Positions 30,470 through 49,929 of a stretch of 55,839 nucleotides of DNA are shown here, piece by piece. Positions within the stretch are counted from its first letter, which is position 1; each line of letters begins with the position of its first letter. Origin of the DNA: an uncultured Clostridia bacterium (GTDB lineage: Bacteria > Bacillota > Clostridia > Oscillospirales > QAMX01). The notes below the pieces were generated by a model. That model had not been told where the DNA came from, did no database searches, and worked only from the letters and a program-made list of their open reading frames with translations. Made by a program: the position numbers and the translations under genes. Location of the stretch: NCBI GenBank assembly GCA_944376195.1, contig CALWBW010000009.1, positions 1-55,839 on the forward strand. Direction: 5' to 3'.

Positions 30470-30560
30470 ATAAGTGAACAACTGCTCTTTGGTGCAAAAA
30501 TGCCGAATGGAATATCAGCGCCAAAACACATATGACCGGATCTTGGAAAAGGAGGCACCT

Positions 30561-33197: not shown

Positions 33198-34329
33198 AAA
33201 TTTGCAAGGCGGAAAGATATGCATATATCCCTACAGCGAAGAAGTTCAACCTTTGTTGAGACACCATACATTGCTATCCTCTGCATGGAAGGTGGCCTCA
33301 TTGGTCTCTCCCAGAAGCTGGGGATTTGTCGGGAGGGAATTCCGGTGCGGAAATGAAATTTTGAAGGTTGAACCGTCGCTTGAGCATTTGCCTGATGACA
33401 TCGATTATATCCTGATCCCGGAATTTTTTGAAAATTTAATGGAGACATCAATCGTAAAACGGATTTTATCGCGTGTTCTCCCGGTGCTTGGTAAGATACG
33501 CGGCATCATACTCTCGGCAGTTTTGGATGGGGAAAATTATGAAATGCTGAAAAGCGCTTGTGCGGGGATCTGCGAATTCATTGACGTGAGCGCAACGTCT
33601 TCGGATCCAGGACCGGTGCAGCAATTTGAAAAAAGGAAGGGCATACTGGAAATCGACGTCCCAGTCATCGGGATTATGGGAATGTGGGATGGTACGGATA
33701 AATTTGAAGTATCTTTGGCTCTTCGTGAGAAATTTTTAAAGGATGGTTACCAAGTCTCTCAAATTGGCTCGAGAAACTACTGCGAAATGATGGGCTTTCA
33801 CTCTTTCCCCCGGTTCATGCTGAATCCCACAGTGGGCGAGGAAGAAAAAATATATCAATTCAACCGGTATTTGAAACAGCTCGTTGAGGAGGAATCTCCG
33901 GATGTGATACTCATCACGATACCTGGCGGTACGCAGCAGCTCAATAATCAGTTCCCGAACCGGTTTGGCATTTTGCCCTTTTTGGTTTCCAAAGCGGTAG
34001 TATTCGACGCGCTGATATTGTGTACGATCTACGAACCGAATGCAGGAGAACTGTTTGAACTGATCTCGACTTCCTTCAAATATAAATACGGCTGCGAAGC
34101 TGATGCGTTCCATATGTCAAACATGGTATTTGATGTTGCGTCGATCAGCGAAAAGGAGGCAATGAGACTTCACCACATTGCAAGGAGCGACGTGGAAAAA
34201 GCCGTAAATGAGAACTATGCCGGCCTGGCAGCCCCGATGGTAGATGTCTATAGCGCCGGCGGGGCGGAAAAGTTATATCACACGATTGTTGATAAGCTCA
34301 CGGAAAATGTGGCTGACGCCATGTTATGA
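33187..34329 (+). CDS. Peptide maturation system protein, TIGR04066-like
   Basis: The 380-residue soluble protein starts inside the end of the radical SAM gene. I recognise it by context and pattern as the TIGR04066 partner of Clo7bot systems. Its centre (about residues 155-200) reads like a degenerate nucleotide-binding fold, VIGIMGMWDGTDKFEVSLALR, where a P-loop Lys-Ser/Thr would be expected but Lys-Phe is found. Later segments PDVILITIPGGTQQLNN and ILCTIYEPNAGELFELIS are typical alpha/beta strand-helix units. It probably helps the radical SAM step or precursor handling; function is unproven. GGAG lies 8 nt before the ATG. Confidence 0.75.
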   Translation: MNFENLQGGKICIYPYSEEVQPLLRHHTLLSSAWKVASLVSPRSWGFVGREFRCGNEILKVEPSLEHLPDDIDYILIPEFFENLMETSIVKRILSRVLPVLGKIRGIILSAVLDGENYEMLKSACAGICEFIDVSATSSDPGPVQQFEKRKGILEIDVPVIGIMGMWDGTDKFEVSLALREKFLKDGYQVSQIGSRNYCEMMGFHSFPRFMLNPTVGEEEKIYQFNRYLKQLVEEESPDVILITIPGGTQQLNNQFPNRFGILPFLVSKAVVFDALILCTIYEPNAGELFELISTSFKYKYGCEADAFHMSNMVFDVASISEKEAMRLHHIARSDVEKAVNENYAGLAAPMVDVYSAGGAEKLYHTIVDKLTENVADAML

Positions 34330-34343
34330 GGAGGGCGCATATA

Positions 34344-34619
34344 ATGCTGACGAAAAATAAGAATTTCACGCCTGAATGGATCTGTGCCGATATCCTGGGT
34401 ATTCTAAAAGAAAAATTTGACGTGAAGAAGCCCAAAGTACAGAGGTTTTTCGGGTTGGAAGGGTTGCTGGATGCCAGGGGGCTTGTCTATCTTGTTCATA
34501 TTCTGGAGGAGCGCTACGGCATCCGCTTTACCGCGGAGGATATGGACGAGGAACAATTTTACACGGTAGACGGCATGGCTGCTATGGTATCTTCGAAGTT
34601 ATGCCCGGAAGACCAGTGA
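34344..34619 (+). CDS. Acyl-carrier-protein-related protein lacking the attachment serine
   Basis: The 91-residue helical protein aligns with ACP: LLDARGLVYLVHILEERYGIRFTAED corresponds to ADSLDTVELVMALEEEF of a true ACP, and TVDGMAAMV to the last helix. The Asp-Ser-Leu site for 4'-phosphopantetheine reads Asp-Ala-Arg, so no prosthetic group can be attached there. It corresponds to the ACP-related family of the Clo7bot system. It may act as a docking or scaffold protein for the PaaK-like enzyme. The ATG at 34344 follows GAGGAGG by 9 nt, and an earlier ATG at 34326 overlaps the upstream stop. Confidence 0.8.
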   Translation: MLTKNKNFTPEWICADILGILKEKFDVKKPKVQRFFGLEGLLDARGLVYLVHILEERYGIRFTAEDMDEEQFYTVDGMAAMVSSKLCPEDQ

Positions 34620-34715: not shown

Positions 34716-34922
34716 ATGAAAAAGCTCAGGAAAGTCAAGACGAACCTGCAGGATTCCATTGAGGCGTATGAAGGAGCTTGTACTTGTTCGATAGGCTGCT
34801 CTTGCGTTGTCTGCGGCTGTCCGAATAATGATTTGAGTATCGACGTAGCTTATGACCCAACTTACGAAAATACGGAATCCACCAGTTTAAGCATTTCTCT
34901 TTCCCATTATAGTTGGGCTTAA
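34716..34922 (+). CDS. Clo7bot-family Cys-rich precursor peptide 1
   Basis: The 68-residue precursor has the conserved leader MKKLRKVKTNLQDSIEAY and then a core with six cysteines spaced CxC-xxx-CxC-xx-CxC (near residues 22-35). An acidic, Tyr-containing stretch follows, with a C-terminal tail SLSISLSHYSWA that resembles the VSTSLSSVHWS tail of the other two precursors. It is the first of three and lies behind the maturation genes. The strong site AAAGGAGG sits 8 nt before the ATG. The leader is the probable recognition element for the maturase, with cleavage likely near the EAY-Glu-Gly junction (inference). A GC hairpin follows. Confidence 0.92.
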   Translation: MKKLRKVKTNLQDSIEAYEGACTCSIGCSCVVCGCPNNDLSIDVAYDPTYENTESTSLSISLSHYSWA

Positions 34923-35008
34923 GCAACACATTTGATGGAGGCAAATGATCATTCTCTGACTGCTATTTAGGGAGGCATGCCAATTTATCTCACTTAGATA
35001 GCATGTGC

Positions 35009-35044
35009 CGGCAGAAGTGCGGCGGACGCGTCGCGCTTCTGCCG
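35009..35044 (+). repeat. Post-precursor GC-rich hairpin, copy 1
   Basis: A 16-bp stem (15 bp GGCAGAAGTGCGGCG with two wobbles plus one C-G pair) has a GACG loop. No U run follows, so it looks like a stabilising or attenuating hairpin between precursor 1 and the first solute-binding gene. Confidence 0.8.
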
Positions 35045-35091: not shown

Positions 35092-36462
35092 ATGAAAAAG
35101 ACTCGCTCCATAGCAGGCCTTCTTGCTGTCGTTCTCCTATTTTTGCTTCCATTTTCCGGGTGTGAGAAAGTCCCAGAACGTACGGAAGTACCCGCACCAA
35201 TCGAAGGGCCAAAACTCGCCGATCTTAAAGAGACAGACACTCTGGTGATTTATGTCATGCAAAGCTTTCAACGAACCTACATGCCCCAAATTGAGGCATT
35301 TCGCAAGGCCACCGGCGTAGACGTAGAGGTCGTAAGCGTAGTTGGGGAACCCGAAGAATTTACAGAACGAGTCATAAACGATATGGTAAGCGGCTCTGGC
35401 CCGGATGTTCTGTATTTTAGCGATTCTTTTAGAATGGATATCACAAAATCTGCATTAAACGGCAATTTTCTCGACTTGACTGATATTTTAGCGGAGGATC
35501 CGGACTTTTCCGAGGACGATTATATCGAGGGGGTGTTTGACGCCTGTCAGGTGAATGGACGGCAATATACAGTTCCAACATCGTATGATCTTCCGTTTGC
35601 ATTTTCTGTTGCGGAGACATTGGCGGATATTGGCTTTCGTTGGGATGGGATTGACACAATGTCTGATTTCATAGAAGAAATCGCACATCTGACTCCAGAA
35701 GCATCTGAAAATAATTCTGGGTTTCAGCAGATGATGAATAGCAAAAACTATTTTAAGATGTTGTACAGATATTCTGGTATTCGTCTGCTGGACTATGAAA
35801 ACGGTGTGGTACTACCGGATGAGAAGGAGCTGCGTGAATTTTTAGAGGCATATAAGCTATTTTTTCCATACGATTATGATGCGTCAGGAGCCTCTCAAAT
35901 CTGGAACAGGGTTGATCCCCTCTTGAGCGGTATCGCCGCTTTTTGGATCCCGTCCTTTCTTACAGGTATTGTTGATTCTATTAGTATCATGAAACTTGAA
36001 TCCCTTGCGTATGCCTATCGTGTAATTCCCAGCCAGACAGGGGAAATCGTCGCACGAATAAGTTCACAATTGGCAATCCCGGCAAATGCAAAAAACACGG
36101 CAAACGCCTATCGCTTTATCAAGTTTTTACTCTCGGAAGAGATGCAGCTGGATCAGAATGTACTTTTAGGGATGAAACCGATTCGCAAAAGTGCGATACA
36201 CAAAGTTATATATGAGACACCGGCACTTTATGAAAACCATGGGTTTTACCTTGATGATCCCGAAAACCTGGCTTTGACGGAGGATGAGGCTGTAGCACTC
36301 GAGGAGGCAATCACCAGTATTGACCGCTTTATGCAGGATGAACGGGTGGTGCTATCGAATATGTTGCAGGAGTCCATGCTGCCCTTCTTCCGGGACGAAG
36401 CAAGTTACGAGGACTGCCTTGCCGACCTCAAGAACAAACTGACGCTCTATTTAAGCGAGTGA
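35092..36462 (+). CDS. Extracellular solute-binding lipoprotein 1 (family 1)
   Basis: The 456-residue protein has a signal peptide with lipobox LPFSGC and then a family 1 (CUT1-type) binding protein: FQRTYMPQIEAFRKATGVDVEV, GSGPDVLYF, FLDLTDILAEDPDFSEDDY, the NGRQYTVPTS hinge segment and FIKFLLSEEMQ. The C-terminus is DEASYEDCLADLKNKLTLYL-SE, nearly identical in all six paralogues, with one Cys 20 residues from the end. It should be anchored outside the membrane and deliver a ligand to the MalF/MalG-type permeases encoded 12 kb downstream. It is closest to copy 2 over the whole length. AGAGGTG precedes the ATG. Confidence 0.9.
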   Translation: MKKTRSIAGLLAVVLLFLLPFSGCEKVPERTEVPAPIEGPKLADLKETDTLVIYVMQSFQRTYMPQIEAFRKATGVDVEVVSVVGEPEEFTERVINDMVSGSGPDVLYFSDSFRMDITKSALNGNFLDLTDILAEDPDFSEDDYIEGVFDACQVNGRQYTVPTSYDLPFAFSVAETLADIGFRWDGIDTMSDFIEEIAHLTPEASENNSGFQQMMNSKNYFKMLYRYSGIRLLDYENGVVLPDEKELREFLEAYKLFFPYDYDASGASQIWNRVDPLLSGIAAFWIPSFLTGIVDSISIMKLESLAYAYRVIPSQTGEIVARISSQLAIPANAKNTANAYRFIKFLLSEEMQLDQNVLLGMKPIRKSAIHKVIYETPALYENHGFYLDDPENLALTEDEAVALEEAITSIDRFMQDERVVLSNMLQESMLPFFRDEASYEDCLADLKNKLTLYLSE

Positions 36463-36533
36463 CGCGCCGCGCTTCTGCCGGGGACCCCATAACCGTTTCC
36501 AGGATGATCCCTTTAGAGAAAGAGGTGTTATCT
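36463..36533 (+). repeat. Inter-gene repeat between binding lipoproteins 1 and 2
   Basis: The segment starts with CGCGCCGCGCTTCTGCCGG, which is the right arm of the post-precursor hairpin without its left arm, then CCCCATAACCGTTTCCAGG and the ribosome site. Nearly the same 70-71 nt recur at 41625 and 43063. Confidence 0.85.
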
Positions 36534-37880
36534 ATGAAAAATCGCCGTATTTTATCCGCGTTTCTTGCCGTCTCCCTGCTGCTCCTCCTTTTTACCGGGT
36601 GCGCGAAAATACCCGAATCTGCCAAAGGCCCCGGGTTTGACGATCTGGTGGAAACAGACACCTTAGTTGTTTATTTAATGCAACGTTTTCAACGAACCTA
36701 CATGTACCAAATTGAGGCCTTTCAGAAGGCCACCGGGGTAGATGTAGAGGTTGTAAGTGTGATCGGGGAGCCCGAAGCATTTACGGAACGTATTATCAAC
36801 GATCTTACGAGTGGTTCCGGCCCGGATGTGCTGATTTTTGACGATACATTTATGATGGACGTTACGAAATCTGCATTAAACGGCAGTTTTCTTGATTTGA
36901 CTGATGTTTTGGCGGAGGATCCGGAGTTTTCAAAAGATGATTACCTGGATGGCGTATTTGAAGCCTGTCAGGTAAACGGACGGCAATACACGATTCCGAC
37001 GTCATATGATTTCCTGTTGGCATTTTCTCTTACAGAAATGCTGGCGGATATCGGGTTCAGCTGGGATGGCATTGATACAATGGCGGATTTTTTGGAAGAG
37101 ATTGCACGTTTAACGCCGGAGGCTGCGGAACTTCCGAAATTTCAGCAAATGCTGAACAGTAAAAATTTTTATTGGAAACTGTACAGGTATGCCGGCATCC
37201 GCCTATTGGATTATGAGAATGGCGTTGTACTGCCGGATGAGGAAGAATTACGCGAATTTTTGGAAGCCTATAAGCTGTATTTTCCATATGATTACGATGC
37301 GTCAGGAGCCTCTCAGACCTGGATCAGAGTAGATCCGCTCTTGAATGGTACGGCCGCTTTTTGGATAACACATTATCTTACAGGGATCGTGGATTCTATC
37401 AGTATCTTGAAACTTAAATCCAGAGAGTATACCTATCACGCGATTCCCAGCCAGACAGGAGAAATTGTCGCACGGATCGGCTCGCAGCTGGCGATTCCGG
37501 CTAATGCAAAGAATACTGCAAATGCCTATCGGTTTATCAAGTTTTTGCTCTCCGAAGAAATACAGGTGGATCAGCTTTTACTTATGGGGGTAAAACCGAT
37601 TCGCAAAAGTGCGATACATAAAGTCATATATGAAAGTCCGGCGTTTTATGAAAACCATGGGTATTACATTGAAGATCCTGAAAATTTTGCTTTGACAGAG
37701 GACGAGGCAAAAGCACTGGAAGAGGTGATGCTCAACATCGATCGTTTTGTGCAGGATGAGAGACTTGTAGTGCCGGAAATGATGTTCGAGTCCATGATGC
37801 CCTTCTTCCGGGATGAGGCAAGCTACGAGGACTGCCTTGCCGACCTCAAGAACAAACTGACGCTCTATTTGAGCGAGTGA
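36534..37880 (+). CDS. Extracellular solute-binding lipoprotein 2 (family 1)
   Basis: The 448-residue paralogue of copy 1 has lipobox LLFTGC, a shorter acidic linker, FQRTYMYQIEAFQKATGVDVEV and GSGPDVLIFDD. The ligand-side segments NGRQYTIPTSYDF and DYENGVVLPDEEELREFLEA are almost as in copy 1, making this pair the most recent duplicates of the array. The ATG at 36534 follows AGAGGTG; the longer frame from 36459 overlaps the previous stop and is not used. The stop is followed by CGGGATGCGTGCGCGCGA, an 18-nt element found again only after copy 6, in both cases where the next gene is not a binding protein. Confidence 0.9.
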   Translation: MKNRRILSAFLAVSLLLLLFTGCAKIPESAKGPGFDDLVETDTLVVYLMQRFQRTYMYQIEAFQKATGVDVEVVSVIGEPEAFTERIINDLTSGSGPDVLIFDDTFMMDVTKSALNGSFLDLTDVLAEDPEFSKDDYLDGVFEACQVNGRQYTIPTSYDFLLAFSLTEMLADIGFSWDGIDTMADFLEEIARLTPEAAELPKFQQMLNSKNFYWKLYRYAGIRLLDYENGVVLPDEEELREFLEAYKLYFPYDYDASGASQTWIRVDPLLNGTAAFWITHYLTGIVDSISILKLKSREYTYHAIPSQTGEIVARIGSQLAIPANAKNTANAYRFIKFLLSEEIQVDQLLLMGVKPIRKSAIHKVIYESPAFYENHGYYIEDPENFALTEDEAKALEEVMLNIDRFVQDERLVVPEMMFESMMPFFRDEASYEDCLADLKNKLTLYLSE

Positions 37881-38000
37881 CGGGATGCGTGCGCGCGACG
37901 TGAAAAGAAAATCAGGATAAAGCAAATGAGTAAAAACAGCCCATATATACATATACAGGGGAAATTGGTGCCCGGTATAAAAACAAAGGAGGAAGGAAAC

Positions 38001-38222
38001 ATGAAAAAACTCAGAAAAGTCAAGACGAACCTGCAGGATTCCGTTGAGGCGTATGCTGGCAGTTGTACCTGTGAGCCCAATTGCTATTGCTCTTGTAATT
38101 GCTATTGTTCTACTGAACACCAGTCAGTGATTGATGCTGTAGAGCCGCAGAGTTCTACATTTTATCAAAACCAAGAATTTGTTGGTGTAAGTACTTCTCT
38201 TTCCAGTGTACATTGGTCTTAA
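38001..38222 (+). CDS. Clo7bot-family Cys-rich precursor peptide 2
   Basis: The 73-residue precursor has leader MKKLRKVKTNLQDSVEAY and a core of seven cysteines, SCTCEPNCYCSCNCYCSTE, five of them in an unbroken C-x-C-x-C ladder. The tail is EFVGVSTSLSSVHWS, identical over its last 13 residues to precursor 3. The leader DNA is nearly identical to the other copies while the core differs. AAAGGAGG lies 8 nt before the ATG at 38001; the earlier in-frame ATG at 37926 is not used. It is placed between binding lipoproteins 2 and 3. Confidence 0.92.
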   Translation: MKKLRKVKTNLQDSVEAYAGSCTCEPNCYCSCNCYCSTEHQSVIDAVEPQSSTFYQNQEFVGVSTSLSSVHWS

Positions 38223-38307
38223 AATTGCGCTCATCAAGAAAGTAAACGTTTATTTGCCAGCTGCTATTTAGGAAAGCAATGAAATTTGCTACGTCTAAAT
38301 AGCAATG

Positions 38308-38347
38308 CCCGGCAGAAGCGCGGCGGACGCGCCGCGCTTCTGCCGGG
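38308..38347 (+). repeat. Post-precursor GC-rich hairpin, copy 2
   Basis: A perfect 18-bp stem CCCGGCAGAAGCGCGGCG with a GACG loop. A weaker upstream hairpin, GCTATTTAG...CTAAATAGC (38265-38303), precedes it, as after precursor 1. No U run is seen, so it may slow transcription or protect the 5' or 3' RNA piece. Confidence 0.85.
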
Positions 38348-38392
38348 GAAAAAGTATGAGCATGAATGAGTTCAAAGAAAAAGGTGTTTTCT

Positions 38393-39769
38393 ATGAAGAC
38401 GACGCATATTCTGTCGCTGGGATTGGCGGCAATACTGCTTCTGCTCCCCTTAGCTGCCTGTCAACAGAAAGAGGACGAAACTTCCACATCTGTCGATACG
38501 CTCGAGCTCGTTGAAAGCCTCACGTATGACGAATTGACTCCTACTGCTTCACTGGTATTGTATGTTCCAGTATCAGCGGAAGCGCAAATACAGCCCTTGA
38601 TCAATCGGTATCAAACGTTTTACGAGGTCGAGGTGGAAGTTGTACGCGTAGATGGCGATTATGAGGCATATGCAGAACGTGTAGCAAATGATCTTGCAAG
38701 TGGGAAAGGCCCGGATGTACTGTTTTTAGATTATCTTGATATAGACATTGCAAAGGCCGCGCTGAACAACAATTTTCTTGATCTGACTGATATTTTAGCG
38801 GAAGACCCGGACTTTTCGGAAGACGATTACCTGGACGGTGTGTTTGAGGCGGGCTGTTTCTATGGGAGGCAATATACAATCCCTACTTCGTTTTTCTTGC
38901 CTCTTCTTCTTTCCGCCCAAACAAAGCTGGAAGAATTGGGCTTTCATTGGGATCAAATAGAAACAACATCGGACTTTTTAGAAGAAATTTCTTGTCTGAC
39001 GCCATACGCGCAACAGAGCCCATCTTTTCAGCAAATGATGCAATCGAAGAATTATGTTGGGATGTTGAACTTAGCATCAGGCATCAGTCTGCTTGACTAT
39101 GAAAAAAACACGGTACTACCGGACGAAGGAGCGCTTCGCGAATATCTCCAGGCCTACAAGGCATATTTCCCATATGATTATGATGAGACGGGACGTTCTA
39201 CTTTATCTAACTTTGGCGCAGATAATCTTGTTCGGGGGAAATACCTTTTCTGGTTGGGCAGTTTAATGATTGCAGATTTAACCTGGAATATGGATGCGCT
39301 GATAGAGGCCTCTTGCGGTTACGCGCTTTCCGTCTTGCCAAGTCAAACAGGCGACATCGTTGGAAGCATAGACGGACAAATGGCCATCAACGTAAATACA
39401 AAGAATCCATTAAACGCATATCGCTTCATCAAAATGATGCTGTCCGCAGATGTACAGAGTAGCAGAAACCCACTTCTTAGTTATGTACCGATTCACAAAG
39501 AGGCCATAAAAGCGATTATATCCGGTACATATACCTTTGATGTCGCAGGGACGACATATGGAGGACGCCAGAGTGCCTACCTCACTGAGGAGGAATTGGA
39601 TACGATCATTGAGACGCTCACCGCAGTCGACCAGTTTACCCAACCGGCATCCGCAAGTGTTAACAATATAATGTGGGAAACCATGCTCCCCTTCTTCCGG
39701 GATGAGAAAAGCTACGAGAACTGCCTTGCCGACCTCAAAAACAAGCTGATGCTCTATTTAAGCGAGTGA
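38393..39769 (+). CDS. Extracellular solute-binding lipoprotein 3 (family 1)
   Basis: The 458-residue family member is the most divergent of the six in the first 150 residues (lipobox LPLAAC, then YVPVSAEAQIQPLINRYQTF). It keeps FLDLTDILAEDPDFSEDDYL, GRQYTIPTSFF, and the conserved end KSYENCLADLKNKLMLYLSE including the late Cys. The middle differs strongly from the neighbours, pointing to a different ligand. It directly follows precursor 2 and its hairpin. The ATG at 38393 has AAAAGGTG upstream; the in-frame ATG at 38366 has no site. Confidence 0.88.
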   Translation: MKTTHILSLGLAAILLLLPLAACQQKEDETSTSVDTLELVESLTYDELTPTASLVLYVPVSAEAQIQPLINRYQTFYEVEVEVVRVDGDYEAYAERVANDLASGKGPDVLFLDYLDIDIAKAALNNNFLDLTDILAEDPDFSEDDYLDGVFEAGCFYGRQYTIPTSFFLPLLLSAQTKLEELGFHWDQIETTSDFLEEISCLTPYAQQSPSFQQMMQSKNYVGMLNLASGISLLDYEKNTVLPDEGALREYLQAYKAYFPYDYDETGRSTLSNFGADNLVRGKYLFWLGSLMIADLTWNMDALIEASCGYALSVLPSQTGDIVGSIDGQMAINVNTKNPLNAYRFIKMMLSADVQSSRNPLLSYVPIHKEAIKAIISGTYTFDVAGTTYGGRQSAYLTEEELDTIIETLTAVDQFTQPASASVNNIMWETMLPFFRDEKSYENCLADLKNKLMLYLSE

Positions 39770-39879
39770 CGATTATGTGTGTACAGTGCAAAAAATCAAA
39801 ATAAAGTACTGAATAAGCAATTAATATTGGTACAGAAATGAAAATTATGGCCTGTTCGAATTAAAAGGAGGAAAGAAAC

Positions 39880-40101
39880 ATGAAAAAACTCAGGAAAGTC
39901 AAGACGAACCTGCAGGATTCCATCGAGGCGTATGAAGGCGCTTGTGATTGTGCCCCCAATTGCAACTGTCATTGCAATTGTGCTTGTTCTAATGTGAATC
40001 CAACTGTTACAAGTCGCACGAATACAGGTTATACTACAGCAGCTAATACTCAGGAATTCGTTGGTGTAAGTACTTCTCTTTCTAGTGTACATTGGTCTTA
40101 A
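39880..40101 (+). CDS. Clo7bot-family Cys-rich precursor peptide 3
   Basis: The 73-residue precursor has leader MKKLRKVKTNLQDSIEAY and seven cysteines at the same spacing as precursor 2 (ACDCAPNCNCHCNCACSN). The residues between the cysteines change (Asp, Asn and His in place of Thr, Tyr and Ser). A variable Thr/Asn-rich middle follows, then the tail EFVGVSTSLSSVHWS. The strong site AAAGGAGG precedes the ATG. It lies between binding lipoproteins 3 and 4. Conserved leader and tail with a variable core is the usual picture of a precursor family made by one shared maturase. Confidence 0.93.
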   Translation: MKKLRKVKTNLQDSIEAYEGACDCAPNCNCHCNCACSNVNPTVTSRTNTGYTTAANTQEFVGVSTSLSSVHWS

Positions 40102-40182
40102 GCTGTGGCTTAATTAAGTAAGTCGATGTAATCTGGTTGTGATTTGAGGAGAACGATACAGATTCGCTTAAGTAGCAGACGA

Positions 40183-40218
40183 CGGCTGAAGCGCGACAGG
40201 TTTGCCGCGCTTCAGCCG
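40183..40218 (+). repeat. Post-precursor GC-rich hairpin, copy 3
   Basis: A 13-bp stem CGGCTGAAGCGCG / CGCGCTTCAGCCG with a 10-nt loop. Compared with copies 1 and 2, compensating changes (GCAGAA to GCTGAA with TTCTGC to TTCAGC) keep the pairing, which supports a functional RNA structure. Confidence 0.8.
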
Positions 40219-40265
40219 GGAAAGCCAAGAATCAGCATGAATGAATTCTAAGAAAGAGGTATCGC

Positions 40266-41624
40266 ATGAAAAAGTCTCGTATTATTGCATTATTCCTTAT
40301 CATGGTGCTGCTACTCCTCCTTTTCACCGGGTGCGCGAAAACACCCGACCGCGCGGAGGAATCTGAGCCCGTCGAAGGCCCCGGGCTTGACGATCTGGTG
40401 GAAACGGATTCGCTGGTGATCTATATCATGAAAGGCAATGAAACGCTTGAACAGCGCCGGATCAACCAGTTTACCGTACTCTACGATGTAGATGTGGAAG
40501 TCGTGCGCGTGGCGGCAGATGAGTATCAGGAACGTGTTATGAATGATCTCGCAGGTGGTTCCGGCCCGGATATCCTGTTTTTAAATGATCTATATTCTCT
40601 GGATTTTACGAAAGCTGCTTTAAACGGGAATTTTCTCGATCTGACTGATATTTTAGCGGAGGATCCAGAGTTTTCGAAAGACGATTATCTGGATGGCGTC
40701 TTTGAAGCCTGCCAGGTGAATGGGCGGCAGTATATAGTACCGTTTTCATGCATGATGCCGCTTGAAATATCGTCCGAGGAATCATTGCAAAAGTTGAGTT
40801 TTGATTGGAGTGAGATCGAGACAACGTCAGATTATATTAATGCGCTTGCGCGCATGACACCTGTGGCAACAAAAGATCTTGGCTTTTCAAGTATGCTTTT
40901 CTCAAAAAATAATTTCTATGCCCTGTTTTCAAGCAGTGGTATTCAACTTTTGGATTATAAAAATGGTGATGTTTTACCAGACGAAGAAGGATTGCGTGAA
41001 TTCATGGAAGCCTATAAAGCATTTTTCCCATATGACTATGATGAAGCAGATGGATCCAGCTTTGCAAACTATGATTCTTATATGCTTAGCTCAGGGACAA
41101 TTGCGTTCTTTGAGCCTATTTCTATTGAAGGCATAACCTCAACAATAAACTGTATGAAGCTTGATTCCTGCGATTATGTACTGCAGGCGTGTCCTGGTCA
41201 ATCCGGCGAGGTCATAAAAAGCATATTCGGACAGATAGCAATAAACGCAAATTCAAAAAACACCTTAAATGCTTATAAATTTGTCAAATATATGCTGTCA
41301 AAAGAGGCACAGTCGGATCCTTACATGATTTATTACATGCCAATTAGCAAAGACGCAATCCATAATAGCATTCATGGTGCAAATGCGCTGTATGAAGCCA
41401 ACGGTTATTATTTTAACGATTACGACAATCTTGCGTTTTCTGAAGAAGAAGCAAACATGATAGAAGCGGAGATCACTAAGGGCGATCAGTTTGTTCGGAT
41501 GATGCCTTTAAATGTATTTAATATGGTGCAGGAATCCATGCTGCCCTTCTTCCAAGACGAGGCAAGCTACGAGACCTGCCTTGCCGACCTCAAGAACAAG
41601 CTGACGCTTTATTTGAGCGAGTGA
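40266..41624 (+). CDS. Extracellular solute-binding lipoprotein 4 (family 1)
   Basis: The 452-residue copy has lipobox LLFTGC and the block CAKTPDRAEESEPVEGPGLDDL shared with copy 5 almost letter for letter. A divergent ligand half follows (MMPLEISSEESLQKLSFDW, ITSTINCMKLDSCDYVLQACPG). It retains NGRQYIVPFS, and its C-terminal DEASYETCLADLKNKL retains the late Cys. Between the lipobox and about residue 190 it switches several times between being close to copy 2 and close to copy 5, consistent with gene conversion. AGAGGTA lies before the ATG. Confidence 0.88.
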   Translation: MKKSRIIALFLIMVLLLLLFTGCAKTPDRAEESEPVEGPGLDDLVETDSLVIYIMKGNETLEQRRINQFTVLYDVDVEVVRVAADEYQERVMNDLAGGSGPDILFLNDLYSLDFTKAALNGNFLDLTDILAEDPEFSKDDYLDGVFEACQVNGRQYIVPFSCMMPLEISSEESLQKLSFDWSEIETTSDYINALARMTPVATKDLGFSSMLFSKNNFYALFSSSGIQLLDYKNGDVLPDEEGLREFMEAYKAFFPYDYDEADGSSFANYDSYMLSSGTIAFFEPISIEGITSTINCMKLDSCDYVLQACPGQSGEVIKSIFGQIAINANSKNTLNAYKFVKYMLSKEAQSDPYMIYYMPISKDAIHNSIHGANALYEANGYYFNDYDNLAFSEEEANMIEAEITKGDQFVRMMPLNVFNMVQESMLPFFQDEASYETCLADLKNKLTLYLSE

Positions 41625-41694
41625 CGCGCCGCGCTTCTGCCGGGACCCCATAACCGTTCCCGGGATGATCCATTTTGAGAAAGAGGTGTTTCCT
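41625..41694 (+). repeat. Inter-gene repeat between binding lipoproteins 4 and 5
   Basis: A near-identical copy of the element at 36463: half-hairpin CGCGCCGCGCTTCTGCCGG, CCCCATAACCGTTCCC and the ribosome site GAAAGAGGTG. Confidence 0.85.
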
Positions 41695-43062
41695 ATGAAA
41701 AGCCGCCGTATTTTATCTGCGTTTCTTGCCGTCTCTCTGCTGCTCCTCCTTTTTACCGGGTGCGCGAAAACACCCGACCGCACGGAGGAATCTGAGCCTG
41801 TCGAAGGGCCCGGGCTTGACGATCTGAAAGCAACGGACTCGCTGGTAATCTATACGTATACGGGAGCTGATGTACTTGATCAACGCCGGATCAATCAATT
41901 TATTGCGATTTACGGTGTGGATGTAGAAGTTGTACGCGTGGACGGGAAAATTCCTGAATACACCGAACGAGTCATGAATGATCTGGCCAGCGGCTCCGGC
42001 CCGGATGTTCTGTTTGTGGATGACCTTTACAGCGCGGATATCGCAAAAATTGCTTTGAACGGAAGCCTCCTCGATCTGACCAATGTTTTGGCGGAGGATC
42101 CTGATTTTTCCGAGGAGGATTATGTCGAGGGTGCCTTTGAGGCTGGACAATTTCACGGACGGCAGTATGTGATTCCACTGGCATTTGAAGCGCCAGTTTT
42201 GCTATCTTCCACGGAAAAATTGGATGAGCTTGGATTTGATTGGGACGGTATTGAGACTACCGAGGATTTTGTAGAAAATTTAGGGCTCCTGACACCTGCT
42301 GCAGAAGAAACCCCCGGGTTTGAGAGGATGTTGGACTCACAGAACCGTTTTTCTCAGTTGCTGATTACCTCGGGCATTACTTTAATTGACTATGAAACCG
42401 GCGAAGTGTTGCCGGAAGAGGAGGAACTGCGCGAATTTCTCGAGGGATACAAGGCGTATTTTCCATATGATTATAACGAGACAGGGAGCACTTATCTTGT
42501 AGGTATGGGTCATGAAGGACTTCTTTCGGATAAATGGAGTTTTTGGCTTGCGCCAACTGTTTCCTGTTTAACTGAATCGATATCTATATTGAAAAATGCG
42601 TCCTGTGATTACACTATGCATTTAATCCCTAGTCAAACAGGAGAAACTGTAGCGAATATACGTGGCGGGGCAATGGCGATCCGGGCTAATACGGAAAACT
42701 CCCTAAACGCATACAATTTTATTAAGTTTATGCTGTCTGCAGATGCGCAAAGTGACCAATTTATACTTCCCGGCTACATGCCAATTCGCAAAGAGTCAAT
42801 TCAAAAAATCATATATAATGCCCCCTCGATGTATCAAAACAACGGATATTACTTTTATGATTCCGAGAACCCGGCACTTACAGACGAAGAAGCGGAAATG
42901 CTCATAGAAATGTTCACCGGGATCGACCGGTTTGTCCTGGGGCTCCCTGTCATGTCAACCATGGTGCAGGAGTCGATGCTGCCATATTTCCAGGACGAGG
43001 CAAGTTACGAGGACTGCTTTGCGGACCTCAAGAACAAACTGACGCTTTATTTAAGCGAGTGA
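41695..43062 (+). CDS. Extracellular solute-binding lipoprotein 5 (family 1)
   Basis: The 455-residue copy has signal peptide RRILSAFLAVSLLLLLFTGC nearly the same at DNA level as copy 2, then the linker of copy 4. The ligand-binding body is distinct (FEAGQFHGRQYVIPLAFEAP, FERMLDSQNRFSQLLITSG, WLAPTVSCLTESISILKN). It ends DEASYEDCFADLKNKLTL-YLSE with the late Cys. The ATG at 41695 follows AAGAGGTG; the in-frame ATG at 41665 lies within the repeat and is not used. It probably supplies a third or fourth ligand specificity to the common permease pair. Confidence 0.88.
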   Translation: MKSRRILSAFLAVSLLLLLFTGCAKTPDRTEESEPVEGPGLDDLKATDSLVIYTYTGADVLDQRRINQFIAIYGVDVEVVRVDGKIPEYTERVMNDLASGSGPDVLFVDDLYSADIAKIALNGSLLDLTNVLAEDPDFSEEDYVEGAFEAGQFHGRQYVIPLAFEAPVLLSSTEKLDELGFDWDGIETTEDFVENLGLLTPAAEETPGFERMLDSQNRFSQLLITSGITLIDYETGEVLPEEEELREFLEGYKAYFPYDYNETGSTYLVGMGHEGLLSDKWSFWLAPTVSCLTESISILKNASCDYTMHLIPSQTGETVANIRGGAMAIRANTENSLNAYNFIKFMLSADAQSDQFILPGYMPIRKESIQKIIYNAPSMYQNNGYYFYDSENPALTDEEAEMLIEMFTGIDRFVLGLPVMSTMVQESMLPYFQDEASYEDCFADLKNKLTLYLSE

Positions 43063-43132
43063 CGCGCCGCGCTTCTGCCGGGACCCCATAATCGTTTCCA
43101 GGATGATCCCTTTAGAGAAAGAGGTGTTTTCT
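43063..43132 (+). repeat. Inter-gene repeat between binding lipoproteins 5 and 6
   Basis: The third copy of the half-hairpin/ribosome-site element described at 36463, one nucleotide shorter than that copy and differing from it by few substitutions. Confidence 0.85.
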
Positions 43133-44485
43133 ATGAAAAACCGCCGTATCCTATCTGCGTTTCTTGCCGCTGTCTTCCTGATTCTCAGTTTTTCTGGATG
43201 TGAAAAAAAGAAGGCACCGGAACCATTGACCTATGGCGAACTAAACGAGACGGATACGCTGGTGTTGTATGTGTTACAAGAACAAGAGAGCATTTTCCGT
43301 AGCATTGCTGCCAGATTTACAGCGAGCACCGGGATTACACCGGAGCTTTTAGTCGTAGATGGGGACCTGGATGTATACCAGGAACGTGTTGCAGCCGATC
43401 TTGCAGCCGGTTCCGGTCCGGATGTGTTGTTCCTCTATTATCTGGATAATCTCGATGTTGCAAAAGCAGTGCAAAACTATAATTTTCTCGATTTGACAGA
43501 GATTCTCGCCACCGATCCGGAATTCTCTGAGGAGGATTTTGTGGATGGGGTCTTTGAGGCGGGGAAGTTTAACGGACGGCAGTATACCGTACCGCAATCT
43601 TTTTATTTGCCATTCTATCTTTCGTCAGGGACAAAGTTGGATGTTTTGGAAGATCAGGATTTTGAATGGGAAGAAATTAACACGACTTCAGAATTCATGG
43701 AAGAAATGGGACGTCTGACACCGCTTGTAGAGGAACTGCCGTCTTTCCTTCGAATGATGCAGTCATGGAATTTTGCATCCAGGTTTTTTCAGAATTCCGG
43801 GATTCGTCTGATTGACTACGATAATGGCGAGATCCTTCCGAATGAGGAGAGTTTGCATGCATTCATGGAAGGATACAAGGCCTATTATCCGTATGATTAC
43901 GACGGAACAGGGGTATCCTGGTGGGAAAGTCGCGGTTCGCAGTATCTTTTGCATGGGTCATATTATTTCTTTAACACCAATTGGAGTCAGGATTTGCTTC
44001 AGGATATTGATGACCTGATTGAGGCGGGGCATGGATATGAGCTGCATGTTATGCCTAGTCAAGCCGGCGATGTAGTCGGACGGATCACCGGACAAATGGC
44101 GATTAACGCAGCAACGCAAAACACGATGAATGCCTATAAATTTATTCAATATATGTTGTCTGAGGAAGAACAGAGCAGTGGAAGCGCGCTGATCAAACCC
44201 GTTCCGATTCGAAAAGATTCGATTCGCGCAATCGTACATGGAGAATACACAAAAATGGCGATTTCGATCAGCATTCCCGGATATAAAAGCGAATATCTTA
44301 CAGAAGAGGAGATGGACAAAATCGTGGAGATGCTTATGAGTGCCGACCGTTACATACAAGATGATCCACGGGCCACTTTGGAAATGATGTGGGAGTCGAT
44401 GCTGCCATATTTCCAAGACGAGGCAAGCTACGAGGACTGCCTTGCCGACCTCAAGAATAAGCTGACGCTCTATTTAAGCGAGTGA
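43133..44485 (+). CDS. Extracellular solute-binding lipoprotein 6 (family 1)
   Basis: The 450-residue copy has lipobox LSFSGC, a shorter basic linker (EKKKAPEPLTYGEL) and a family 1 body with GSGPDVLFLYYLDN, GRQYTVPQSFYLPF and FIQYMLSEEEQ. It keeps the C-terminal DEASYEDCLADLKNKLTL with the late Cys. Several aromatic residues in the putative pocket differ from the other copies (WWESRGSQYLLHGSYYFF). It is the last of the array, and its stop is followed by the 18-nt boundary element CGGGATGCGTGCGCGCGA before the exporter gene. Confidence 0.88.
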   Translation: MKNRRILSAFLAAVFLILSFSGCEKKKAPEPLTYGELNETDTLVLYVLQEQESIFRSIAARFTASTGITPELLVVDGDLDVYQERVAADLAAGSGPDVLFLYYLDNLDVAKAVQNYNFLDLTEILATDPEFSEEDFVDGVFEAGKFNGRQYTVPQSFYLPFYLSSGTKLDVLEDQDFEWEEINTTSEFMEEMGRLTPLVEELPSFLRMMQSWNFASRFFQNSGIRLIDYDNGEILPNEESLHAFMEGYKAYYPYDYDGTGVSWWESRGSQYLLHGSYYFFNTNWSQDLLQDIDDLIEAGHGYELHVMPSQAGDVVGRITGQMAINAATQNTMNAYKFIQYMLSEEEQSSGSALIKPVPIRKDSIRAIVHGEYTKMAISISIPGYKSEYLTEEEMDKIVEMLMSADRYIQDDPRATLEMMWESMLPYFQDEASYEDCLADLKNKLTLYLSE

Positions 44486-44520
44486 CGGGATGCGTGCGCG
44501 CGAAATAGGGAACAGGGGAA

Positions 44521-46338
44521 ATGACAAAATCTATGAAAAAGCTTACGCAGTTATTCAAGGACTTTGGCCTTGTATTACGTTTTAGTCTCAGAATTTCTTA
44601 TAAATCCTCACCAAAATATTTTATAATTCGCATTTTGGTAGACCTTGCAAATATTGTGCTGCCTTTTGCCACGATCTCTCTTAATGGATATCTGGTGGAC
44701 TTGCTCACACAGGGCGGCTCTTCGCCGGATGTTCTTGCGCCTCTTTTATTTCTTGTATTGCTTGCGCTTGCGGTCAAGGGCGCAAACAGTATATCAAATA
44801 CTATTTTAACTTACTGCGACGGCATGCACCGGGAACTCCTGACGCAATTTAACAGGTCGGAAATCATCAAAACGGTGGCGGATATCGATCTGTCGTTTTT
44901 TGATTCCAACGAGTTTTATAACGAGCTTAGCGATGCAAATGCAAATGCGATGACTGTTTCATTCGCGGCTTTCCAAGCAATGAATTTTTTCCGATCTTTC
45001 ATTCAATTGGTGATCTCTGTGGTTTACATTTCCACGTTCAGTCTGGTTTACGCCGTGCTGCTTATCGCAAGCGGAGTTCCAAACATTATTTTTAGTATCC
45101 GGCAGCTCAATCTGATTTACTCTTGGCGGCGGGATAATTTATCGAACGAACGAAAAATTTCCTACGTTTCCAGCCTGGCGACCCAGAGGTATTATGCGAA
45201 AGATATCAGGTTTTATGGTTTGTCTTCCTACATCATGCAAAAATATGCGGATTTGTTTCGAACCTGGTTCTCTGAAAAACGATCGGTTTCCTATAAGAGT
45301 ACGGTCTTTCTCTGTGTGGCCTCTTTGCTCCCGGAGGTTATGACCGCGGTTATCACCTTTCGCCTGGGGGTATCCATCCTAGAAGGGCAATTGTTGGTGG
45401 GCGATTTCGTTCGTTACACAGGATTGATCGGCCAGCTGCTTACCAGCATGTATTCTGCAATTCGCTATCTCAGTGATTTGAATGACGCCAGGGTGAAAAT
45501 AAAAAATTACGTCAAACTCCTCAACTGGGAGACGAGCGTTGAAAAATCTGGGGCAAGTTTGGTCCCTGACGGTCCGCTCAATTTTGAATTTCGCCATGTG
45601 TCGTTTTCCTATTTGGACCATCTCCCGAAGGTTTTGACTGACGTAACCTTCTCTTTCACAGACAAAGAAAAAATTGCGCTTGTCGGCCAAAACGGCTCCG
45701 GTAAATCAACCATAATCAAACTGTTGATGCGCTTTTATGATCCCACCGAGGGGGAAATTCTACTCAATGGCAAAAACCTGAAGGAATATGATTTGCGTTC
45801 GCTCAGGCGGTGTTTCAGCACGCTGTTTCAGGATTATTGTAACTATGCGTTTACGGTAAAAGAATCTACCATGCTTGCGGATAATAACGCTTTGCATGAC
45901 GAAAGTAAAGTAAAAGACGCACTTTGTAAGAGCGGAGCGATGGAATTTGTCAGGAATTTTCCAAAGGGAATTGACAGTTATCTTACAAGAGGATATGATG
46001 AGGATGGAGTGGAAATGTCTGGCGGACAATGGCAGAAAATGGCGCTTGCGCGCACCTTTTACCGGGACGCCCCGATTTACATATTGGATGAACCGTCTGC
46101 TGCGCTGGATGCGCAGTCCGAGGATAAACTGTTTAAAGACTTTGAAAAACTGTATCGGGACAAGGGTGCGTTGCTCATTTCACACCGGTTATCTAATGTG
46201 GTGAGCGCGGATCGAATTTTGGTGCTTGAAAACGGAAAAATCATCGAAGCGGGAACGCACCGGGAACTGATGCGGCAAAACGGGCAATACGCCAAAATGT
46301 TTCAATTGCAGGCTGATAAATATAGGGAGAAGGATTGA
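44521..46338 (+). CDS. ABC exporter (membrane domain plus ATPase) of the peptide cluster
   Basis: The 605-residue half-transporter has six membrane helices in its first 330 residues and then an ATPase with Walker A GQNGSGKST, signature MSGGQWQKMALARTF, Walker B IYILDEPSAALD and switch His in LLISHRLSNV. No N-terminal C39 peptidase domain is present, so leader removal must be done by another protein, most likely the subtilase encoded next. A homodimer should export the mature Cys-rich peptide. The start at 44521 has AGGGGAA very close; an ATG at 44533 is an alternative. It is separated by 3 nt from the protease gene. Confidence 0.9.
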   Translation: MTKSMKKLTQLFKDFGLVLRFSLRISYKSSPKYFIIRILVDLANIVLPFATISLNGYLVDLLTQGGSSPDVLAPLLFLVLLALAVKGANSISNTILTYCDGMHRELLTQFNRSEIIKTVADIDLSFFDSNEFYNELSDANANAMTVSFAAFQAMNFFRSFIQLVISVVYISTFSLVYAVLLIASGVPNIIFSIRQLNLIYSWRRDNLSNERKISYVSSLATQRYYAKDIRFYGLSSYIMQKYADLFRTWFSEKRSVSYKSTVFLCVASLLPEVMTAVITFRLGVSILEGQLLVGDFVRYTGLIGQLLTSMYSAIRYLSDLNDARVKIKNYVKLLNWETSVEKSGASLVPDGPLNFEFRHVSFSYLDHLPKVLTDVTFSFTDKEKIALVGQNGSGKSTIIKLLMRFYDPTEGEILLNGKNLKEYDLRSLRRCFSTLFQDYCNYAFTVKESTMLADNNALHDESKVKDALCKSGAMEFVRNFPKGIDSYLTRGYDEDGVEMSGGQWQKMALARTFYRDAPIYILDEPSAALDAQSEDKLFKDFEKLYRDKGALLISHRLSNVVSADRILVLENGKIIEAGTHRELMRQNGQYAKMFQLQADKYREKD

Positions 46339-46341
46339 ACT

Positions 46342-47502
46342 ATGCGCTGGGCCATACTAGATGACGGCGTGAATTTAGCGCTTCCCGCAATTGTTCAAGA
46401 TCTTGAAATAGACCGCTATGGCATGGTGAAAAAAAGAATCTCGAAGTCGACGTCCGATCATGCGACGATTTGTTTCAAAATCATACAAAAATATGCCGGT
46501 ACGCTGTTTGATGTAGTAAGCATTAAAATTTTAAATGATGATACCCGCCGGGGCAATAAAGACGCGCTGATTGCTGCATTCCGTTGGTGCATGGAAAACG
46601 GGATCCGGCTGATTCATATGAGCATCGGAACGACGGACCCCCGTGACGGAGAGGAAATACGGACCTTGATTGGGGAACTTACCGCTCGTGGGATCATCAT
46701 TGTCGCGGCGAATAGTAATAAAGGCGTACAAACATACCCTGCCTATGAGAATCGTGTTATTGGCGTAGAGTGTGATGCGACGTTGCGGGATGATCAGTTT
46801 GTATATACGCCTAATGCGTTGAACGGTATGATGTTCCGCGCCTCATCCCGTCACCGGATTGCGGGGGGGCCTGTCCCGATAACGTCTTTTGCCAATTCTT
46901 TCGCCGCGCCGCTGATTACGGCGCAGCTTCTCAAACTGGCGGAGCGTGAAAGATGCTTTTCTTATGCCCGTGCGGTTGAATGGCTGCGGGAAAACGCGGT
47001 TCGCACGGATGAAAGGGTGCTGTTCTCTCTGCCGCACAACGTAGAAAAGGCGGTGGTAATTGCGCTTTTGGGGTTGGACAGAGTCTTAACACGACAGTTG
47101 ATGACAGAATGGAAGACGTTATTCAGAAAGGACGGCTATGTGTGTTGTATGTCCGCGCCTGCGGAATGGCTGATCCCGGAGGCGGAGGTGATTCCTCCCC
47201 GGATGACACAAGGCCGTTATCTGGATTGGGCGGCGCGATTTTTCTCTTGTGAGGTGATTTTGGCTGCGTTGACGGAAGAAGAACTGGACGGAGCAGAAAC
47301 AGAGATTGATTTGCTTGTCACGTGCAATGCGAGTAGAATTCCCCCTGCTTATCATGAAGCGGTCATTTACACGGAATCCGACGGGACTGTGCGCAGTTCC
47401 GACGAATTATATCAAGAACTGATTTCCATATTGACGGAGGAGGAAACACCTATGAAACTGATTGAAGACCGCAGCATGCCGACCATCTGGGCAGAACCAT
47501 GA
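46342..47502 (+). CDS. Subtilisin-like (S8) serine protease, probable leader peptidase
   Basis: The 386-residue protein has no signal peptide and a subtilase core with D7 in AILDDGV, H40 in SDHATICF, N124 in IIVAANSNKG as oxyanion residue, and S186 in ANSFAAP. The usual HGT and GTSMAAP motifs are degenerate (DHAT, FANSFAAP), but all triad residues are in place. The C-terminal 180 residues match no domain I know and may bind the precursor. Placed right behind the exporter, it is the best candidate to cut the leader in the cytoplasm. Its end overlaps the permease start (ATGA). Confidence 0.82.
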   Translation: MRWAILDDGVNLALPAIVQDLEIDRYGMVKKRISKSTSDHATICFKIIQKYAGTLFDVVSIKILNDDTRRGNKDALIAAFRWCMENGIRLIHMSIGTTDPRDGEEIRTLIGELTARGIIIVAANSNKGVQTYPAYENRVIGVECDATLRDDQFVYTPNALNGMMFRASSRHRIAGGPVPITSFANSFAAPLITAQLLKLAERERCFSYARAVEWLRENAVRTDERVLFSLPHNVEKAVVIALLGLDRVLTRQLMTEWKTLFRKDGYVCCMSAPAEWLIPEAEVIPPRMTQGRYLDWAARFFSCEVILAALTEEELDGAETEIDLLVTCNASRIPPAYHEAVIYTESDGTVRSSDELYQELISILTEEETPMKLIEDRSMPTIWAEP

Positions 47503-48368
47503 AAAAGGGAAGCTTGGCGCGCCGGGAAGCGCGCATAGGATGGTGTTACGCGGCGCTGCCGCTTTGCGGGTTTGCCGTGTTTTTCCTGGTGCCTTTTCTC
47601 ATCAGTATCCTGCGTTCGTTTCAAAAAGGCCTGACCCAGGAGTTTGTCGGACTCGAAAATTATGCCGAACTGCTGCAAAGCGAGGCATTCCGTACCGCCG
47701 CGATCAATACGCTGCGTTTTATTGCATTCGCCGTACCGTTAAATGTGCTGATCGGTCTGCTGATTGCCCTGGCGCTGTACCGGCTGATTGCACGAGCCTC
47801 GTTTTTCCGTACGGTCTTTCTGATCCCTTATGTTATTCCGGTATCCGCAACCGTGATGTTTTTCCAGATTCTCTTTGAGCGTTCCGGTTTCATTAATACC
47901 GTTTTGCGGATGATTGGTGCGGAACCGGTCTCGTTTCTTGACAGCTCAAACGCGTTCTATATCCTTTTGTTATTATATTTATGGAAAAATTTTGGATATA
48001 ACATGGTGCTTTTTCTGGCGGGACTCTCCCGTATCCCGCGGGATTACAGCGATGCGGCGTGTATTGACGGTGCAGGAACGCTCCAAACTTTCTGGTATAT
48101 CACGATGCCTCTGCTTGCCCCCACGTTTTTCTTTGTTTTCGTCATCAGTATCATGAACTCTTTCAAGGTATTCCGAGAGGCCTATGCCCTGGGCGGCGAG
48201 TATCCGCACGAGAGCATCTATATGCTGCAGCATTTCATGAACAATAATCTGCTAAACCTGAATTATCAGCGCGTATCCACGGCGTCGCTTTATGTCTTTG
48301 TCGTCATTGTGCTGCTGGTGCTGCTGCTCTACCTCCGGAGACAGAAGAAGGGAGAGTATCAACTATGA
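47499..48368 (+). CDS. Sugar-type ABC importer permease (MalF/UgpA-like)
   Basis: The 289-residue protein has six membrane helices and the cytoplasmic EAA loop DAACIDGAGTLQTFWYITMPLLAP, which docks on an ATPase. N-terminal WCYAALPLCGFAVFFLVPFLISI is typical of CUT1 permeases. It pairs with the next gene, with a 4-nt overlap. No MalK/MsmX-type ATPase lies in the window, so a shared ATPase encoded elsewhere is likely. The six binding lipoproteins upstream are its probable partners. The ATG overlaps the protease stop, so translation is coupled. Confidence 0.92.
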   Translation: MKKGSLARREARIGWCYAALPLCGFAVFFLVPFLISILRSFQKGLTQEFVGLENYAELLQSEAFRTAAINTLRFIAFAVPLNVLIGLLIALALYRLIARASFFRTVFLIPYVIPVSATVMFFQILFERSGFINTVLRMIGAEPVSFLDSSNAFYILLLLYLWKNFGYNMVLFLAGLSRIPRDYSDAACIDGAGTLQTFWYITMPLLAPTFFFVFVISIMNSFKVFREAYALGGEYPHESIYMLQHFMNNNLLNLNYQRVSTASLYVFVVIVLLVLLLYLRRQKKGEYQL

Positions 48369-49228: not shown

Positions 49229-49241
49229 AAAGGAGCGGAAT

Positions 49242-49928: not shown

Positions 49929-49929
49929 T

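Follow-up and report, generated by a model that had tools for sequence, protein, structure and literature searches.

Introduction

In lantibiotic immunity, the surface lipoprotein LanI (NisI) binds the peptide and the ATP-binding cassette (ABC) transporter LanFEG removes it. MbnE, the methanobactin-binding protein, is a solute-binding protein (SBP) dedicated to a ribosomally synthesized and post-translationally modified peptide (RiPP) and encoded in its cluster, and it is thought to work in RiPP recapture. Tandem surface-antigen or orphan-immunity arrays have homogenized ends and variable centers, and their conserved flanks let divergent cassettes recombine. Here we analyzed a stretch of 55,839 nucleotides (nt) from an uncultured Clostridia bacterium (contig CALWBW010000009.1 of a 2.2-Mb genome, assembly GCA_944376195.1; hereafter the window), which carries a RiPP cluster with three precursor genes (p1 to p3) and six SBP lipoprotein genes (S1 to S6). 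A previous sequence-only reading had placed a "diversification array" of six binding lipoproteins at 35092-44485. Six SBP_bac_1 lipoprotein open reading frames (ORFs) are present there, but that description overlooked the RiPP precursors between them and the RiPP cluster setting.

SacP23, a CLI_3235-family peptide of Paenibacillus polymyxa, was expressed and reported to be active against methicillin-resistant Staphylococcus aureus (MRSA) (PMC10731318), and this is the only reported activity that we found for CLI_3235-type peptides. CbpC of Clostridium thermocellum, the closest solved relative of the lipoproteins, showed no binding to any tested sugar in isothermal titration calorimetry and nuclear magnetic resonance, and its expected pocket was obstructed by an extra loop (mBio 2022, PMC9601137). 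Growth on glucose, cellobiose and Avicel was normal in a mutant of transporter C. Binding by CbpC had been claimed in an earlier study (PMC9601137). Because of these binding data, the name "cellodextrin-binding" looks wrong for this protein. The kind of RiPP encoded in the window is already known; its pairing with amplified, recombining, precursor-headed CbpC-type SBPs was not found in the open-access literature, where we found no paper describing SBPs in CcpM/CLI_3235 RiPP clusters.

Six CbpC-type lipoproteins with homogenized 3' ends

All six SBP ORFs are intact, match SBP_bac_1 above the Pfam gathering cut-off and keep an invariant lipobox Cys. CbpC was the top match by sequence profile (3.8e-56). 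The AlphaFold2 model of S3 points to the same fold, superposing on CbpC (7x0o) with a Z of 32.6 and 3.0 Å over 385 residues (next-best Z 26.3), at 22% identity across the aligned part. Whole-gene identity among the six is 56-64% in nt, apart from S1/S2 at 77%. No relatives of the array were found in viral contigs. The genes, their 3' blocks and the spacers between adjacent copies are located as follows.

35092..36462, plus strand: S1, SBP_bac_1 (CbpC-type) lipoprotein (Pfam SBP_bac_1, 2e-16)
36534..37880, plus strand: S2 lipoprotein, first ~147 nt S5/S4-like (triplet recombination test)
38393..39769, plus strand: S3 lipoprotein (AlphaFold2 model, mean confidence score pLDDT 87.8; CbpC Z 32.6)
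40266..41624, plus strand: S4 lipoprotein (ORF)
41695..43062, plus strand: S5 lipoprotein, signal peptide as S2, linker as S4 (codon and amino-acid identity by segment)
43133..44485, plus strand: S6 lipoprotein, sister to S3 in the middle and like S2/S5 at the junction (partition trees)
36376-36462 (S1), 37794-37880 (S2), 39683-39769 (S3), 41538-41624 (S4), 42976-43062 (S5) and 44399-44485 (S6), plus strand: homogenized 3' block (synonymous identity 0.79)
36463..36533, plus strand: junction spacer S1/S2, with the precursor hairpin's right arm at its start (91-97% identity with the S4/S5 and S5/S6 junctions)
41625..41694, plus strand: junction spacer S4/S5 (91-97% junction identity)
43063..43132, plus strand: junction spacer S5/S6 (91-97% junction identity)

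The last 84 nt (about 28 codons) show 81-94% DNA identity in all 15 of 15 pairs, compared with about 45-70% elsewhere. Synonymous identity was measured as the same-codon fraction at positions with an identical amino acid. It was 0.79 in the end block (last 28 codons), 0.48 in the middle and 0.40-0.57 in all other segments, against a codon-usage expectation of 0.39-0.40, and the excess in the end block was significant on invariant columns (p=5e-5). Since codons agree so much more often at the ends than in the middles for the same amino acids, the ends are conserved beyond protein constraint. The near-identical 3' ends and the strongly divergent centers described in the sequence-only reading were both recovered.

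A second genome of the same genus (G001) carries SBPs of this type. For the middles, the distances within and between the two genomes were equal, with about 45-50% amino-acid identity for most pairs. The ends were 79-96% identical in amino acids among the window copies and 57-79% between the window and G001. S4 illustrates this: its middle is 54-59% identical in nt to the G001 middles and 58% to that of S1, whereas its end is 87-90% identical to the window copies and 69-74% to those of G001. For the ends, synonymous identity was 0.79 among the window copies, 0.58 among those of G001 and 0.47 between the two genomes; the middles compared between genomes gave 0.45. On these sequence comparisons, the SBP ends evolve in concert within each genome. 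The tandem SBP pair that follows a RiPP precursor in another family of the order (L072) appears as an independent case of the same homogenization, with a synonymous identity of 0.93 in the last 28 codons versus 0.49 in the middle (binomial p 2e-6); the similarity stops near the stop codon. A weaker end homogenization was seen in a non-RiPP SBP pair (L154, p 0.01). The protein constraint at the C-terminus may supply the homology for conversion, and the non-homologous 3' flanks and the divergent centers would bound the tracts.

Mosaic 5' segments and shared junctions

The upstream parts of the genes have different histories. S2 and S5 share a signal peptide (amino-acid identity 0.95, synonymous identity 0.89), S4 and S5 share a linker with the same two values, and S5 and S6 have the last block in common; the first two of these pairings had been noticed in the sequence-only reading. 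Its statement that the signal-peptide DNA is nearly identical between copies held for S2/S5, in part for S6 and S4, and not for S1 and S3, which differ; over the first 66 nt of the gene S2 and S5 are 94% identical, and the value for S6 is 74%. S2 is S1-like except in its first ~147 nt, for which the donor was S5/S4-like (triplet test, 0/100,000 permutations, p<1e-5). The middle tree groups S1 with S2 and S3 with S6, whereas the 3' block favors S5 with S6, and the approximately unbiased (AU) test on the 3' block rejected the middle topology with a p of about 0.04. For the 5' end, the whole-tree topology test was not decisive (AU p 0.08-0.68), although the triplet test was.

Directly 3' of the TGA, the junction spacer opens with CGCGCCGCGCTTCTGCCGG; in other places this sequence forms the right arm of the hairpin between a precursor and its SBP. 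S2, S5 and S6 are exactly those copies placed directly behind another SBP, and therefore the shared unit is the junction, comprising the 3' end, the 70-nt spacer and the signal peptide. This arrangement suggests that the tandem runs arose by tandem duplication of a hairpin arm plus SBP, or by loss of a precursor and left arm between SBPs.

One alternative does without gene conversion and explains the conserved ends solely by purifying selection on a functional C-terminal helix together with a constraint on codons or RNA. It is favored by the C-terminal ending LYLxE, which is kept family-wide and in distant members, and by a short palindrome within the last codons of the SBP genes. However, a genus-wide DNA or RNA constraint would keep the between-genome synonymous identity of the ends high, yet this value falls from 0.79 in the window to 0.47, about that of the middles (0.45), and such a constraint was rejected as the main cause. 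The conflicting partitions and the mosaic 5' end of S2 also argue against this explanation, which we consider extremely unlikely. With segments homogenized at synonymous sites, conflicting partitions and concerted evolution relative to a same-genus genome, the sequences indicate that recombination homogenizes the 3' ends and shuffles 5' segments among S1-S6, as the earlier proposal of duplication plus gene conversion had it.

The middles are old. S1 and S2, taken before as a recent pair, are 77% identical in amino acids, with a synonymous divergence (dS) of about 1.3, which is not fully saturated, and a ratio of nonsynonymous to synonymous divergence (dN/dS) of about 0.11; hence, the pair is not a recent one and shows no visible diversifying selection. 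The G1A/G1B pair in a relative gave a dN/dS of about 0.16. The dS of most other SBP pairs is saturated or nearly so, which suggests that the middles are old rather than fast. Positive selection, and with it the selection for new specificities that had been invoked, was not upheld, since dN/dS was low or saturated. The term diversification array is plausible for the architecture of old divergent middles and homogenized ends, but present positive selection was not demonstrated.

Each SBP run is headed by a precursor and a hairpin

The genes are arranged as p1-S1-S2, p2-S3 and p3-S4-S5-S6, with a precursor at the head of each run.

34716..34922, plus strand: RiPP precursor p1, CLI_3235 family (TIGR04065, 30.1 bits, cut-off 26)
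34961-35003 and 35009-35044, plus strand: two strong hairpins 3' of p1 (minimum free energy (MFE) -48 kcal/mol, z -7.3)
38001..38222, plus strand: RiPP precursor p2 (TIGR04065, 28.2 bits, cut-off 26)
38262..38347, plus strand: two strong hairpins 3' of p2 (MFE -61.6, z -11.0)
39880..40101, plus strand: RiPP precursor p3 (TIGR04065, 32.8 bits, cut-off 26)
40183..40221, plus strand: strong hairpin 3' of p3 (MFE -37.7, z -4.2 for 40131-40225)

All three peptides are Cys-rich and contain CxC motifs. Within the precursors p2 and p3, too, the ends are conserved and the center is divergent, with nt identities of 52/57 in the leader, 40/57 in the Cys core, 21/60 in the linker and 46/48 in the tail. 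Their leader, the Cys spacing CxCxPNCxCxCNCxC and a 15-residue tail are common to both, and the non-Cys residues of the core and those of the linker differ. In the same-genus relative the precursor is likewise followed by a hairpin (z -2.6). The hairpins 3' of the precursors have no U tract and gave no terminator call on the plus strand, and no Rfam family matched in the array region; they might serve as mRNA stabilizers or attenuators.

The surrounding RiPP cluster

The RiPP block spans about 30.4-51.0 kb of the window. Its G+C content is lowered in most of the block (0.38-0.46 up to 46 kb) relative to about 0.55 in the flanks. Another genome of the genus (G002) is collinear with the left flank at 77-82% nt identity until the histidine kinase and divergent beyond, and in this comparison an empty site was demonstrable on the left side only. 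The genes run in the order PaaK-like ligase, CcpM, TIGR04066, acyl carrier protein (ACP)-like, p1, S1, S2, p2, S3, p3, S4, S5, S6, then ABC exporter, S8 protease, MalF-like, MalG-like, membrane fusion protein (MFP)-like and FtsX-like permease.

30474..31763, plus strand: PaaK-like adenylate-forming ligase, accessory (weak NCBIfam matches to AMP-dependent CoA ligases)
31788..33197, plus strand: CcpM radical S-adenosylmethionine/SPASM maturase (TIGR04068, 524.7 bits, cut-off 500)
33187..34329, plus strand: TIGR04066 peptide maturation protein (281 bits, cut-off 200)
34326..34619, plus strand: acyl-carrier-like protein (weak TIGR04069/PP-binding matches)
44521..46338, plus strand: ABC exporter, membrane and ATPase parts (Pfam ABC_membrane/ABC_tran)
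46342..47502, plus strand: S8 subtilisin-like protease (QhpE-like), likely leader protease (Peptidase_S8; NF049966 E 4e-25, below cut-off)
47499..48368, plus strand: MalF/UgpA-like permease (BPD_transp_1)
48365..49228, plus strand: MalG/UgpE-like permease (BPD_transp_1)
49242..49928, plus strand: MFP-like protein (weak RND_mfp match; L155, L154 and L158 have a comparable gene at this position)
49894..50988, plus strand: FtsX/MacB-like permease (MacB_PCD)

By its family matches, with CcpM, TIGR04066 and the three TIGR04065 precursors all above cut-off, the block is a CcpM/CLI_3235-type RiPP biosynthesis cluster, and its products are predicted to be bacteriocin-like peptides. The ACP-like protein is under the TIGR04069 cut-off (20.6 bits versus 70) and was assigned from its position and a weak PP-binding match. 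Comparable small genes adjoin TIGR04066/CcpM in L068-L074, and a TIGR04069 protein was not taken as essential for the cluster class, as many CcpM loci in the homology scan were without one. A gene 35% identical to the PaaK-like ligase likewise lies upstream of CcpM in L068. The occurrence of this ligase upstream of CcpM together with the ACP-like protein suggests a step of acyl or amino-acid activation in peptide maturation.

The SBP-MalF-MalG-MFP-FtsX set occupies 43133-50988, with the exporter and protease interposed, and an ATPase with a MalK-type C-terminal domain is encoded at another place in the genome. These parts could belong to an ordinary oligosaccharide ABC importer with expanded SBPs that lies in the RiPP cluster by chance, as the SBP_bac_1 fold and the MalF/MalG-like permeases would allow. 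However, the precursors are interleaved with the SBPs in an order that recurs in other genera, CbpC failed to bind any tested sugar, and growth on glucose, cellobiose and Avicel did not require its transporter (PMC9601137). On account of the interleaving and the CbpC binding data, we regard a simple sugar importer as very unlikely. A second possibility is recapture or sensing, in which the SBPs and MalFG would re-import the mature RiPP, alone or with metal or other cargo, and multiple SBPs would fit multiple peptides. The SBP with two permeases forms an importer-like set, the peptides are Cys-rich with CxC motifs, and the MalK-type ATPase is available elsewhere in the genome, all of which favor this possibility. 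Against it, the MFP and FtsX-like genes of the module are not usual importer parts, no metal-related gene was recognized in the cluster, and a loop obstructs the expected pocket in the relative CbpC (PMC9601137). We judge recapture or sensing unlikely.

Occurrence in other genomes

We examined 38 CcpM/TIGR04066 loci, 7 from the order and 31 from the class, some of them cut by contig ends. CbpC-type SBPs accompany CcpM/TIGR04066 in 4 of the 7 order loci and 3 of the 31 class loci. A precursor lies directly upstream of an SBP three times in the window and also in L063 (same genus), L069, L071 and L072, so that the precursor-then-SBP order recurs in other genera; SBPs occur together with CcpM/TIGR04066 in L073, L110/L158, L117 and L122 as well. 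In the SBP tree, duplicates cluster by locus in L069, L072 and L157 with 100% support, and local amplification therefore happened repeatedly. RiPP-linked and unlinked SBPs do not form two separate clades in this tree.

In one further genome (G427, L157), SBPs, exporter and S8 protease are arranged as in the window. This direct succession in both loci would fit SBPs that act as export or maturation helpers, that is, as extracellular chaperones that help the exported peptide to fold, be processed or be released, rather than as immunity factors. Most class-wide CcpM clusters sampled are without SBPs, however, and we think such a role quite improbable.

The G001 array (L063) has the order SBP-SBP-precursor-SBP-SBP with unrelated genes on both sides, and no CcpM match was seen within the 20-21 kb examined. 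Its span (SVLW01000003.1, 12398-18456) constitutes an orphan precursor/SBP array, in an assembly with no TIGR04068 match over cut-off. The fifth SBP of this genome adjoins MalFG-MFP-FtsX on another contig (L064). Two complete CcpM-TIGR04066-ACP sets stand in tandem in L069 (3121-18091), each with an SBP and a Cys-rich precursor beside it. Two SBPs of G178 whose signal peptides are almost the same are located at contig ends (L065, 3-1460, and L144, 18107-19327); because this assembly seems to break in the SBP repeat, copy numbers from draft genomes are lower bounds.

The SBP-MalF-MalG-MFP-FtsX set is also found in L155, L154 and L158. SBPs of ~870 residues, in which a long N-terminal extension precedes the CbpC-like part, are encoded in L154 (7102-12336) and L158 (3-2189), with regulator-like genes near. 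L155 is the CbpC locus of C. thermocellum, whose protein equals the 7x0o sequence over the stretches compared. Beside CbpC, L155 (9398-11047) holds what is left of a second copy, a C-terminal remnant of 66 aa with a near-identical ending. Neither a RiPP gene nor a CcpM-like gene was seen in the 20 kb of this locus, and the reading of "rsam" in the legend to Fig. 1 of PMC9601137 as a part of transporter C was accordingly dropped.

Discussion

We propose that S1-S6 are surface receptors for the mature RiPP, serving in immunity or recognition, and that they were amplified and shuffled by recombination; we give this proposal, in which the ligand and function are what we infer, an even chance. The basic unit would consist of a precursor, a strong mRNA hairpin and one or more SBP genes. 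CcpM would modify the three Cys-rich precursors, and the S8 protease and ABC exporter would trim and export the peptides. The six lipoproteins on the outer face of the membrane would then bind the mature peptide or its relatives and pass it to the MalF/MalG-like and MFP/FtsX-like parts, which would remove or move it. The evolutionary part is supported by sequence. In the tandem SBP runs, the joint reaches from just past the stop codon to the right hairpin arm. Recombination evens out the 3' ends and moves junction, signal peptide and linker between copies, leaving the ligand-binding centers old and divergent, so that each run comes to hold a set of different binding centers sharing one C-terminal end. 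We favor immunity over uptake, since importers do not usually have MFP and FtsX-like parts and since SacP23 was reported to be active against MRSA.

Several observations weigh against this proposal. The six SBPs and three precursors do not match one to one, and 28 of the 31 class-wide CcpM loci sampled are without SBPs, as is the tabulated cluster of SacP23 (PMC10731318); MalFG are likewise missing from the latter and from most class-wide loci sampled, in contrast to the window with its three precursors interleaved with six SBPs. The CbpC-type SBP/MalFG/MFP(/FtsX) module was seen without nearby RiPP genes in L067, L154 and L155, and hence the ancestral ligand of this module was not necessarily a RiPP. 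Protein constraint accounts for part of the 3' conservation, since distant members of the family keep the C-terminal motif as well, and dN/dS gave no sign of ongoing diversifying selection (0.11 for S1/S2, with most other pairs saturated or nearly so).

More broadly, tandem arrays of this kind may form a recombining RiPP-receptor repertoire that swaps binding centers between homogenized ends, giving gut Clostridia a changing immunity or recognition set against their own and their competitors' peptides, with CbpC-type "sugar-binding" proteins being misannotated peptide receptors. This wider proposal is tentative and we hold it to be doubtful. The CbpC type, which is solved, functionally orphan and annotated as sugar-binding, is now linked to RiPP clusters, and a testable ligand is proposed for it. 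The independent cases of concerted 3' ends with old divergent centers in tandem binding-protein genes point to a simple means of combining one common end with a repertoire of binding sites. Should the SBPs prove to be receptors or immunity factors, they would offer a self-protection handle in SBP-bearing CcpM clusters, usable for finding active peptides.

Comparison with known systems

The window shares CcpM, TIGR04066, ACP-like protein, Cys-rich precursors, ABC exporter and S8 protease with the known CLI_3235/CcpM clusters, including that of SacP23. With transporter C of C. thermocellum, it shares the closest fold and sequence (CbpC, 7x0o), the SBP-MalF-MalG-MFP-FtsX set and the ending LxLNE; that locus differs in having a single full SBP plus the 66-aa remnant and no RiPP genes seen in 20 kb. 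The array logic is like that of tandem surface-antigen or orphan-immunity arrays, although no silent cassettes, recombinase or switch were seen in the window. Relative to MbnE, the transport setting and peptide chemistry differ, and the window has six copies interleaved with precursors. By analogy, the proposed system would work like LanI and LanFEG, from which it would differ in the SBP fold of its lipoproteins and in their multiple copies.

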